NCBI RefSeq assembly: GCF_030813715.1
Contig: NZ_JAUSUZ010000001.1
Coordinates: forward strand, 806,001-870,000
Direction: 5' to 3'
DNA: 64,000 nucleotides
From: Catenuloplanes indicus
Lineage (GTDB): Bacteria; Actinomycetota; Actinomycetes; Mycobacteriales; Micromonosporaceae
Part shown: positions 16,260 through 18,976 of the stretch, piece after piece
Layout: each line of letters starts with the position of its first letter
How positions within the stretch are numbered: the first letter of the stretch is position 1
Notes under the pieces: generated by a model
What the model was told of the DNA's origin: nothing
The model's database searches: none
The model's input: the letters and a program-made list of their open reading frames with translations, nothing else
Translations under genes and position numbers: made by a program

Positions 16260-16309
16260 CTTGACGGCGTGGTCAAGTTGGGTGCACGCTTCTTGACCAT
16301 GCAGTCAAG
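16260..16309. promoter_or_regulatory. Two TetR-type operators over the peptide promoter/start
   Basis: CTTGAC-GGCGTG-GTCAAG (16260-16277) and CTTGAC-CATGCA-GTCAAG (16292-16309) are perfect 6-6-6 inverted repeats. They share identical flanking bases (T before, T after), and their centres are 32 bases apart, about three helical turns. The first contains a -35-like TTGACG. The second contains the start codon of the small peptide in its spacer. No convincing -10 box is visible. The obvious candidate ligand is the TetR protein encoded at 17110-17673 at the end of the same operon. Confidence 0.8.
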
Positions 16310-16433
16310 TACAGAGACGGACGTTCTCGACGACGTCACGGAGGACGCGGAGACCGTCGCGCCCCCGACCCTGATCATGCTGGAGACCGCGGACGACGCC
16401 GCGGTCTGCGACGTGGACGGAGTGTGCGCCTGA
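16299..16433 (+). CDS. Small acidic two-cysteine peptide
   Basis: A 44-residue ORF, too short for most gene callers. The N-terminal part is strongly acidic and Thr/Asp/Glu-rich (residues 2-20). It is followed by APPTLIMLE, and the tail ADDAAVCDVDGVCA holds Cys37 and Cys43 (C-x5-C). There is no signal peptide. The stop TGA shares its A with the ATG of the DsbA-type gene (TGATG), so translation is coupled. The start codon lies inside an operator and has no Shine-Dalgarno sequence, which suggests a leaderless message. The layout (acidic leader, short Cys core) resembles ribosomally made peptide precursors, but no modifying enzyme other than the oxidoreductase is adjacent. A dithiol substrate or partner of the DsbA protein is equally possible. 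I do not recognise the family. Confidence 0.55.
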   Translation: MQSSTETDVLDDVTEDAETVAPPTLIMLETADDAAVCDVDGVCA

Positions 16434-17113
16434 TGAGCGCGAGCGTGTTCGGCGCGGCCGCGGAGCCGATCGTCATCGACGTCTGGAGCGACGTCGTCTG
16501 CCCGTTCTGCTACCTCGGCCACGGCATCCTGGAGCAGGCGGTCGAGCAGTTCCCGCACGGCTCGTCCGTGCGGATCCGGTACCGCAGCTTCCAGCTGCAC
16601 CCGGGCATCACCCGGCCGGTCCCCGCGGACGACTACGTAGTGGCCAAGCTCGGCATGCCGAAGGCGCAGCTGGACGCGTCGCACGCGCAGATCGCCTCGC
16701 GCGGCGCACAGGTCGGTCTGGACTACCGGTTCGACAAGGCGCTGATGGCCGACACCATGGACGCGCACCGGATCATCCACCTGGCCGGCGCGCACGGCCG
16801 GCAGATCGACGCCGTCAAGCGGATGTTCAAGGCCGAGTTCACCGACGGCCTCGACGTCTCCGACCACACCGTGCTGGCCGGCCTCGCGGTCGAGCTGGGC
16901 CTGGACCGGGACGAGGCGATCAGAACCCTGGAGACCAAGGGGTACGAGAAGGAGATCCAGGCGGACCTGTTGCAGGCCCGGCAGTACGGGATCACCGGCG
17001 TGCCGTTCTTCGTCTTCGACAGCAAGCGCGCGGTCTCCGGCGCCCAGCCACTGGAGACGTTCCGGCACGCGCTGGACGTGAGCTGGCAGGACCGCGCCGC
17101 CACCCCGGCATGA
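16433..17113 (+). CDS. DsbA/FrnE-family thiol oxidoreductase
   Basis: A 226-residue cytoplasmic DsbA-like protein (FrnE/2-hydroxychromene isomerase-like group). The N-terminal thioredoxin strand runs into DVVCPFCYLG, with the CPFC redox pair at residues 23 and 26. An inserted helical domain follows, and then TGVPFFVF, holding the cis-proline loop. There is no signal peptide. I place the start at ATG 16433, which overlaps the peptide stop, rather than the GTG at 16424. It ends in an ATGA overlap with the TetR gene. FrnE-type proteins act as disulphide oxidoreductases or isomerases in oxidative stress and in some biosynthetic pathways. Here the most immediate candidate partner is the two-Cys peptide translated just before it. 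Confidence 0.85.
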   Translation: MSASVFGAAAEPIVIDVWSDVVCPFCYLGHGILEQAVEQFPHGSSVRIRYRSFQLHPGITRPVPADDYVVAKLGMPKAQLDASHAQIASRGAQVGLDYRFDKALMADTMDAHRIIHLAGAHGRQIDAVKRMFKAEFTDGLDVSDHTVLAGLAVELGLDRDEAIRTLETKGYEKEIQADLLQARQYGITGVPFFVFDSKRAVSGAQPLETFRHALDVSWQDRAATPA

Positions 17114-17673
17114 CATCGCTCCGCGCCGACGCCCGGCGGAACATCGAAGGCATCCGCCGGGCCGCGATCGACGCGTTCCGCGCCGGCGGGCTCACCGTGC
17201 CGCTGGACGACGTGGCGCGGGCCGCCGGGGTCAGCAAGGGAACGATCTACCACCGCTTCGGCAGCCGCCGCGGCCTGATCGACGCGGTGGTCGACGAGCT
17301 GGTCGCCACGCGGATCGGCGAGATCATCGACGCGGTCGAGGCGCTCGACGGCCCGCTGGAACGGTTCGAGGCGTACCTGCTGCGCACCTGGCTGCTGCAG
17401 TTCGACGAACCGGCCGCGAACGACGTGCTGATGCGCGTGCTGCCCGACTCCGCGCCGCTGACCACGCTGTTCGACCGGTCCTGCGCGTTCGGCCGGCGGC
17501 TGCTGGCCGACGCGCAGGCGGCCGGTGTGGTGCGCGCGGACATCACGCCGGAGGACCTGGTGCAGCTGATCCTGGAGCGCGGCGCGATCATCCGGGCCTG
17601 CGACCGCCAGACTCGCGACGACTACCGCCGCCGCCTCGACTTCACCCTGCGCGGCCTGCGCTCCAGCCGCTGA
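17110..17673 (+). CDS. TetR-family transcriptional regulator
   Basis: A 187-residue repressor. The N-terminal helix-turn-helix spans residues ~15-60 with the family core VPLDDVARAAGVSKGTIYHRF. The C-terminal ~130 residues are the ligand-binding helical domain. It is the third gene of the peptide-DsbA-TetR operon (ATGA overlap), so autoregulation through the CTTGAC-N6-GTCAAG pair is the simplest reading. A second, unrelated palindrome pair (GTGAGT-N4-ACTCAC) lies 164 bases downstream of its stop. Which pair it binds cannot be told from sequence. Confidence 0.9.
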   Translation: MTSLRADARRNIEGIRRAAIDAFRAGGLTVPLDDVARAAGVSKGTIYHRFGSRRGLIDAVVDELVATRIGEIIDAVEALDGPLERFEAYLLRTWLLQFDEPAANDVLMRVLPDSAPLTTLFDRSCAFGRRLLADAQAAGVVRADITPEDLVQLILERGAIIRACDRQTRDDYRRRLDFTLRGLRSSR

Positions 17674-17836: not shown

Positions 17837-17876
17837 GTGAGTGACGACTCACCCAAAATAGTGAGTCGCCACTCAT
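17837..17876. promoter_or_regulatory. Paired GTGAGT-N4-ACTCAC palindromes
   Basis: GTGAGT-GACG-ACTCAC (17837-17852) is a perfect inverted repeat, and GTGAGT-CGCC-ACTCAT (17861-17876) matches it but for one base. Centres are 24 bases apart. The pair sits 16 bases upstream of the minus-strand start of the decayed SnoaL-like ORF and 12 bases beyond the xylanase stop. It looks like a TetR-type double operator left at an otherwise dead gene. Confidence 0.75.
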
Positions 17877-17887
17877 CTTGTCCACGG

Positions 17888-18976
17888 TCACGCCGCGGCG
17901 AGCGTGTCCCGCAGCGCGTAGTAGGCGGGCTTGCGCCGGAAGTCGTCCCACATCACGGTCGCGGCGCCCTCGGCCGGGAAGAAGTGCGGGACCCACGAGT
18001 ACTTGTCCGTGAAGCCCCAGATGGTGAACGAGTTGCAGCCGTCGACCGCGAGGCACGCGTCCAGCGCGGTCGTGTAGTACGTCGCCTGCGTGGCCAGTTG
18101 CTCCGGGGTCGGCACCCCGCCCTCGGGCAGGTCCATCCGCACGTCCAGCTCGGTGATCGCGGTGTGCAGACCCAGATCGTCGAAACGCTGGAGCACGGTC
18201 CGGAGCTGATCCGGCGCCGGGTACCTCATGCTGAGATGCGCCTGAGAGGCAAAACCGTGCAGCGGTACGCCGTCCGCGAGCAACTGCCGGGCCAGCGCCT
18301 CGTACGCGTCCACCTTCGCACCCGGCCAGTCCACGCCGTAGTCGTTCAGGAACAGCTGCGCGTGCGGGTCGGCGCGGTGCGCCCAGCGGAACGCGTCCGC
18401 GACGATGCCCGGCCCGAGTTCCCGGATGAAGATGTTCTCCTGCCGGTACGCGCCGGTGTCATCGAAGATCTCGTTGGCCACGTCCCACTGGTGGATCTTC
18501 CCGCGGTAGCGTCCGGCCACGGTCATGATGTGGTCCTTCAGGATCGCCCGCAGCTCCGCCTTGCTGAACGTACCCTCGGTCAGCCACGCCGGGTTCTGGC
18601 TGTGCCAGAGCAGTGTGTGCCCACGCACCGCCTGCCCGTTCTCCCGCGCGAACCGCACGATCGCGTCCGCCGGCCCGAACCGGTACTCGTACCGTCCGGG
18701 GTGGATGAACTCCCACTTCATCTGGTTCTCCGGGCTGGCCGAGCTGAACTCCCGGGCCAGCACCCGCCGGTACGGCCGGTCGGCCGTGAACGGGTCCGGG
18801 TACTCCTGCTCCAGATGGTGCCCGCCGCCGGCCACCGCGGTGCCGATCCGCAGCCCGTGCGGTGCCGCCTTGCGCAGCGTGCCGTCCCGGCCACCACCCG
18901 CCTGCGCCGGTACCGCCCCGCCCCCGACAAGCACCACGACCGCCAGCACGGCCACGGCGACACGGTTACCTTTCAT
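17888..18976 (-). CDS. Secreted GH10 endo-1,4-beta-xylanase
   Basis: A 362-residue glycoside hydrolase family 10 enzyme. Residues 1-26 are a Sec signal peptide (MKGNR, hydrophobic core, AVPAQA). The TIM-barrel landmarks are HTLLWHSQNPAWL (residues 120-132), WDVANE with the acid/base Glu169, LFLNDYG, and the nucleophile Glu276 in ITELDVRM. WGFTDKYSWVP carries the conserved tryptophans. It lacks any carbohydrate-binding module, so it is a minimal catalytic-domain enzyme for internal xylan cleavage outside the cell. The ATG is preceded by AGGGAGGAG. A consensus promoter and a CGAAA-N-TTTCG operator lie upstream. Confidence 0.95.
   Translation of the reverse strand: MKGNRVAVAVLAVVVLVGGGAVPAQAGGGRDGTLRKAAPHGLRIGTAVAGGGHHLEQEYPDPFTADRPYRRVLAREFSSASPENQMKWEFIHPGRYEYRFGPADAIVRFARENGQAVRGHTLLWHSQNPAWLTEGTFSKAELRAILKDHIMTVAGRYRGKIHQWDVANEIFDDTGAYRQENIFIRELGPGIVADAFRWAHRADPHAQLFLNDYGVDWPGAKVDAYEALARQLLADGVPLHGFASQAHLSMRYPAPDQLRTVLQRFDDLGLHTAITELDVRMDLPEGGVPTPEQLATQATYYTTALDACLAVDGCNSFTIWGFTDKYSWVPHFFPAEGAATVMWDDFRRKPAYYALRDTLAAA

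Follow-up and report, generated by a model that had tools for sequence, protein, structure and literature searches.

What does a peptide of 44 residues that ends in a pair of cysteines do for the DsbA-type oxidoreductase to whose gene its own gene is coupled? The question is raised by a short operon in the 64,000-nucleotide stretch of Catenuloplanes indicus DNA that we have analysed (the window), and we approach it by way of the layout of the locus, the part that the enzyme appears to be missing, and the places where the peptide and the enzyme occur together in other genomes.

A three-gene unit behind paired palindromes

The elements of the locus are as follows.

16260..16277, + strand: probable operator O1, CTTGACGGCGTGGTCAAG, a perfect palindrome that includes a -35-like TTGACG (16261-16266)
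16286..16291, + strand: ACGCTT, a possible -10-like position, read by eye from relatives' promoters
16292..16309, + strand: probable operator O2, CTTGACCATGCAGTCAAG, a perfect palindrome over the peptide start codon
16299..16433, + strand: peptide open reading frame of 44 codons, MQSSTETDVLDDVTEDAETVAPPTLIMLETADDAAVCDVDGVCA, the proposed trans-acting FrnE tail
16371..16430, + strand: tail-like core of the peptide, LIMLETADDAAVCDVDGVCA, by similarity to fused FrnE tails
16433..17113, + strand: tail-less FrnE-type DsbA of 226 amino acids (PF01323, E 3e-44)
17110..17673, + strand: TetR-family regulator (PF00440, PF21597), the probable autorepressor of the operon

The original prediction had described a two-cysteine peptide coupled to a CPFC oxidoreductase through TGATG, and both the arrangement and its coordinates are borne out: the peptide ends in C-x5-C-A and its TGA (16431-16433) overlaps the FrnE ATG (16433) by one base. 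There are other in-frame starts 5' of the peptide ATG, for example a GTG at 16269. At the far end the FrnE gene (end 17113) overlaps the TetR gene (start 17110) by ATGA, again as described, while the term "translationally fused" is a misnomer, since the frames of peptide and enzyme differ and the genes merely overlap. That the peptide belongs to no named family agrees with our search, in which it had zero matches to NCBIfam or Pfam at E <= 10.

The two perfect CTTGAC-N6-GTCAAG palindromes do lie 32 bp apart, start to start, and their reportedly identical flanks are identical for one base on each side and differ beyond. With at most two mismatches allowed, this palindrome has five sites in the window, where 1.18 are expected, the perfect ones being O1 and O2 only. 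Among 25 promoters of relatives (20 distinct), which were chosen because an O2-like motif surrounds the ATG, an O1-like site precedes O2 by 30-32 bp in 22 and the O2 half-site pattern is matched in full by 21; many relatives also carry, by eye, a TAGCTT- or TAACTT-like hexamer that ends 7 bases before the ATG. A consensus scan returned no sigma-70 promoter on the + strand at the locus, and the peptide mRNA may well begin without a leader. The conservation of the N-terminal MQSS/MEST of the peptide arises because its codons overlap O2, and it therefore says little about the peptide itself.

A paired operator ahead of the peptide and a TetR gene nearby were found as claimed. A TetR homologue lies downstream of FrnE at all 30 loci with long flanks, these being the best FrnE matches of the family search described below. 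At seven loci of FrnE clade B the TetR gene is instead divergent and upstream, and TTGACC-N4-GGTCAA sites lie between the genes at three of the seven. Similar palindromes thus accompany similar TetR genes in two different layouts, which supports the assignment of the palindrome as an operator, and the operon is, judging by these patterns, probably autoregulated by TetR at O1 and O2.

The peptide was present in all five searched genomes of the genus and in further relatives. In the first search these were the five genus genomes and two further genera of the family, with a FrnE gene following at all seven loci, in one genus genome after ∼70 bases. A profile built from these seven rows found 52 of 300 family genomes (E <= 0.1), in part through weak matches, and 5 of 246 genomes of the phylum, one of them that of the window itself and the other four with weak matches; a wider profile later found more. 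Named relatives that carry the module comprise nine Actinoplanes/Paractinoplanes records and, from another order, Kineosporia rhizophila, whose locus has both operators, FrnE and the start of TetR. Conservation is concentrated in a C-terminal core, PxLI.LE..DDA.VC..DG.C plus one residue. Nearly every one of 25 aligned peptides keeps its L, G and both cysteines, which are also seen in other families, and the N-terminus is variable and acidic. Purifying selection is modest, with pN 0.24 and pS 0.42 over the last 11 codons and pN 0.36 and pS 0.37 over codons -22 to -12.

Several observations concern the surroundings of the module. A small single-cluster ferredoxin gene (PF13370, 15941-16132) lies upstream of it in the window and adjoins it in four of five genus genomes, and is absent beside the other loci searched. 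In Kineosporia rhizophila the TetR is 84% alike over 50 residues at the contig end, as against 59% for FrnE, and this module was possibly acquired by horizontal transfer. In one genome represented by loci L096 and L021 (G209), and in Actinoplanes palleronii (L210), ∼1.4 kb separates peptide and frnE where relatives show TGATG, which looks like an insertion.

A FrnE core without its tail

The only two cysteines of the window oxidoreductase are those of CPFC (residues 23-26), and its C-terminus, SWQDRAATPA, carries no C-x4-C tail. Its closest solved relatives are drFrnE from Deinococcus radiodurans (E 8e-44; PDB 5cnw, 5co3, 5cp1 and others), to which it is 38% identical with a CPxC in common, and SCO1869 from Streptomyces coelicolor (E 1e-40; PDB 3gl5); the alignment with drFrnE ends at residue 226 of the 260 in that protein. 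An AlphaFold model with a pLDDT of 90 finds in Foldseek, as its top matches, five drFrnE entries and SCO1869 at a TM of about 0.9. The window protein thus has the DsbA-type thioredoxin fold nearest to drFrnE and a CP(W/F)C near the N-terminus, and it lacks the C-terminal CX4C tail. According to a 2022 review, that tail is present in many FrnEs and not in all (PMC8945050), so that the window protein stays a FrnE, outside the tailed drFrnE-like class. The rest of the genome holds one further FrnE match at E <= 0.001, weak and partial. Exactly two cysteines are likewise found in 55 of the 56 FrnEs that have a peptide partner in the family survey. DsbA-Mrx1 type reductases (Rv2466c, NCgl2339, NCgl2478) are also actinobacterial, DsbA-like and equipped with CP(W/F)C, and are coupled to mycothiol/Mtr/NADPH (PMC8280269); Rv2466c is structurally farther from the window FrnE (Foldseek rank 36).

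What the missing segment does in drFrnE is described in the same review: the tail, C239-x4-C244, touches the active site of another molecule, an intermolecular disulfide joins Cys244 to Cys22, and the tail cysteines are dispensable for insulin reduction with DTT (PMC8945050). Of tail-less FrnEs the review says only that their regeneration must differ (PMC8945050).

The core of the peptide, PxLIMLE..DDAxVC..DGxC, resembles the drFrnE tail PLTMLGQDAPAEGCEDGQC, which as compared here reads PAPLTMLGQDAPAEGCEDGQC; the hydrophobic PLTML of the latter and its cysteine pair correspond to the window peptide. The tail of drFrnE differs in being fused C-terminally and in having C-x4-C, where the window has a separate upstream gene and C-x5-C, and SCO1869, whose tail contains CGPDGC, and other tailed actinobacterial FrnEs differ in the fusion as well. 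Upstream peptides of other loci read, for example, PPLIILEGAEDAPVCENGVCL and GLIVLGSGDADACSDGNCF, and a fused tail from the family reads SLTVLGSPDAGSCDDDSCAI.

When the peptides were scored with a tail profile against shuffles in which the cysteines were kept fixed, 43 of 56 exceeded the 99th percentile, only 3 of the 56 lying above every one of the 2754 shuffles scored. With the roles of tail and peptide reversed, 13 of 32 tails passed the 99th percentile and 7 beat every shuffle. The best match of the peptide profile is the tail in 29 of 32 tailed FrnEs (∼12% expected by length), a result to which the cysteine pair contributes. At p<0.05 the drFrnE tail is matched by 42 of 55 peptides and the SCO1869 tail by only 21 of 55, and a PDB-wide profile search with a 23-column peptide core did not recover the FrnE tails of drFrnE or SCO1869 at E <= 10. 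For most peptides, then, the resemblance extends beyond the cysteines, and the window peptide departs from the tails in its C-x5-C. Spacing is in fact mixed: the family's upstream peptides have x5 at 38 and x4 at 18 of 56 loci and all 17 family tails have x4, while in the class all 11 upstream peptides have x4 and, among 28 tails, three have x5 and one x6. As far as sequence can tell, the peptide resembles the C-terminal dithiol tail of FrnE. The earlier idea of a disulphide-carrying peptide therefore comes near to the best reading, but the correspondence to the FrnE C-x4-C tail had gone unseen.

Fused tails and separate peptides across the family and the class

A FrnE match occurs in 284 of 300 genomes of the family, and the best 130 places were analysed, 30 with long flanks and 100 fetched. 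Of these best 130 loci, 17 have a fused tail, 56 a peptide gene upstream, 57 neither and none both; three loci with an internal stop (L114, L123, L192) are counted as neither, and two upstream pattern hits (L110, L195) were set aside by eye. The peptides were recognised with a pattern that replaced a stricter version, which gave 48 upstream peptides and missed those of clade B. The junction of peptide and FrnE is TGATG in 33 of the 56. Most of the loci with neither belong to a separate subfamily that ends in GAQEPETLLAAL or similar, and within clade B neither tail nor peptide is found at 9 of 31 loci. The background of the pattern was gauged on 208 other window ORFs in six frames, with 3 hits, and on 600 random positions, with 9, so that its presence at 56 of 113 tail-less family FrnEs compares with ∼1.5% background.

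In the class, the wider peptide profile matched in 27 of 296 genomes at E <= 0.05. Outside the window this profile has 27 matches, and of the 23 that were inspected, 12 lie upstream of a FrnE, six downstream and five with no FrnE nearby; in the six downstream cases the FrnE is tail-less and the peptide ORF begins on or just past its stop, in another frame. A search led by FrnE instead, over genomes that partly overlap those of the peptide-led one, gave 88 places in 81 of 148 genomes, of which 85 were analysed and 7 without the motif left unclassified. The 78 classified loci divide into 28 with a fused tail, 11 with the peptide upstream, 9 with it downstream and 30 with neither, none having both. 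Five downstream pattern hits (L251, L262, L291, L255, L267) were set aside by eye, and two loci with odd tails, L291 (C-x9-C) and L256 (one cysteine), are counted as neither. In seven of the nine the downstream ORF starts 4 bases before the end of the FrnE stop codon.

None of the tailed FrnEs examined (17 in the family, 28 in the class) has an adjoining peptide gene, pattern hits judged spurious aside. Fisher tests of this exclusivity give about 3e-5 for each set and ignore relatedness. In quick trees the upstream peptides fall in two FrnE clades, and those that lie downstream belong to a third, where they are interspersed with tailed FrnEs. The tree used for independent contrasts retains 155 of the 208 loci surveyed, the rest, mostly with neither, having been lost to the trimming pattern; on it the exclusivity is not significant because there are only three well-supported contrasts. 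The loci with neither, 57 of 130 in the family and 30 of 78 in the class, imply that a tail-less FrnE can do without the peptide.

A proposed split FrnE and its alternatives

We think it likely that the locus encodes a FrnE in two pieces, with a coupled microprotein providing the tail in trans, a reading that draws on the comparisons computed here (conservation, tail-lessness, resemblance, non-coexistence in the sampled loci, two gene orders, operators) and on analogy. A tail supplied in trans is the most likely explanation because that of drFrnE already acts between molecules. In the scheme that we infer for binding, electron transfer and its direction, the reductase, the promoter, and TetR binding and its signal, the FrnE core would retain the thioredoxin fold and CPFC, and the dithiol tail would be made from the separate gene directly upstream. 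The peptide would dock on FrnE through its hydrophobic LIMLE stretch, by analogy with drFrnE, and its C-x5-C would exchange disulfides with CPFC, so that the enzyme is recharged. TetR bound to O1, over the presumed -35, and to O2, over the presumed leaderless start, would keep the operon repressed in the absence of an inducing signal, which might be a thiol-reactive compound, and TGATG coupling would lead to peptide and enzyme being produced together. Mycothiol could also reduce the peptide or FrnE directly, which may account for the many FrnEs with neither tail nor peptide; for a CPFC DsbA of Corynebacterium the mycothiol/Mtr/NADPH pathway is the preferred electron source (PMC8280269). FrnE with a fused tail is already known, and what would be new here is FrnE with its tail encoded separately: the literature consulted, mostly at the level of titles and abstracts and with few subscription journals, describes neither a split FrnE nor this peptide.

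Of the alternatives, one keeps the redox role and loosens the partnership. The peptide might be an unfolded microprotein redoxin that diffuses as a dithiol carrier and serves FrnE, and possibly further disulfide enzymes, irrespective of where in the genome it is encoded; we regard this as rather unlikely. Two genomes of one genus (L217 in G732, L232 in G653) bear on it, each with a tail-like ORF whose 1.5-kb surroundings contain no FrnE. The FrnE of G653 (L303) lies ∼0.8 Mb from that ORF, is tail-less, has no adjoining peptide and clusters, with a support of 78, with FrnEs whose peptide lies downstream. If the unlinked ORFs are real, the tail would act as a free, unlinked redox carrier. Also unlikely is that the peptide is a dedicated client, a metal- or thiol-binding peptide or a TetR ligand that FrnE merely oxidises or reduces, its likeness to the tail being convergence on a cysteine pair. 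The x5 against x4 spacing, the variable, acidic N-terminus and the PDB-wide search without a tail match speak for this, whereas most peptides outscore cysteine-fixed shuffles, and the partner FrnEs are themselves tail-less, with the peptide upstream or downstream and never beside a fused tail in the sampled loci. It also counts against this rival that no TetR homologue was found in the 1.5-kb flanks of the six downstream-type loci or, for most loci of clade B, in the short flanks.

Leaderless ORFs with runs of cysteine codons, reportedly described in mycobacteria by Canestrari in 2020, offer a precedent for a cysteine-responsive leaderless upstream ORF that attenuates or couples frnE expression and whose peptide is functionless; like them, the window ORF is short, bears cysteines, lies upstream of a gene and has a leaderless-looking start, with cysteine codons near the stop and TGATG coupling besides. 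They differ in that the window peptide is conserved in sequence, with its L, G and both cysteines kept in other families too, that its cysteine codons form no run, and that, at 9 of 78 class loci, such a peptide gene follows frnE and cannot serve as a leader there. These downstream copies, together with a simple scan in which no terminator was found, disfavour an attenuator, and we consider it improbable. A ribosomally made peptide natural product with FrnE as its disulfide-forming maturase, which the original prediction had put forward as a minimal ribosomal peptide pathway, would suit a short peptide with a terminal cysteine pair next to an oxidoreductase. It is not supported: in the ∼2.5 kb around ten named loci, ORFs outside the module match in at most four of the other nine, so that no maturation or export gene, nor any extra gene, is common to more than five of the ten, and it is disfavoured for want of such common genes. 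The C-terminal core of the peptide, moreover, is like the FrnE tail and the peptide is matched by no family, and we judge this origin very improbable. Least credible, to the point of being nearly negligible, is a chance ORF in GC-rich DNA, kept only through operator and coupling constraints. The overlap of N-terminal codons with O2 and a pN/pS that is not low speak for it, but the pattern exceeds its background at tail-less loci as given above, and it is also found at many loci with no detected palindrome.

If the split FrnE is as we propose, a redox-active segment of an enzyme would be working as a free microprotein, which would suggest what a conserved class of small genes, named by none of the family models used, may do, and it would be a ready split-redox part for engineering. 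A split form in several actinobacterial families would bear on how FrnE is recharged, and the natural split in two gene orders offers a direct test of FrnE regeneration, with the peptide added or omitted.

Some minor observations remain. The tail-like ORFs at L217 and L232 lie near what by eye are an apparent MFS transporter and a small membrane protein. Elsewhere in the window, large ORFs between 9092 and 15847 resemble, by eye, phage-tail or injection-system baseplate proteins, and a minus-strand ORF at 17888-18976 likewise resembles a GH10 xylanase. Two TGAGT-type palindromes at 17838-17875 stand upstream of what resembles a truncated gene start, a very short minus-strand ORF.
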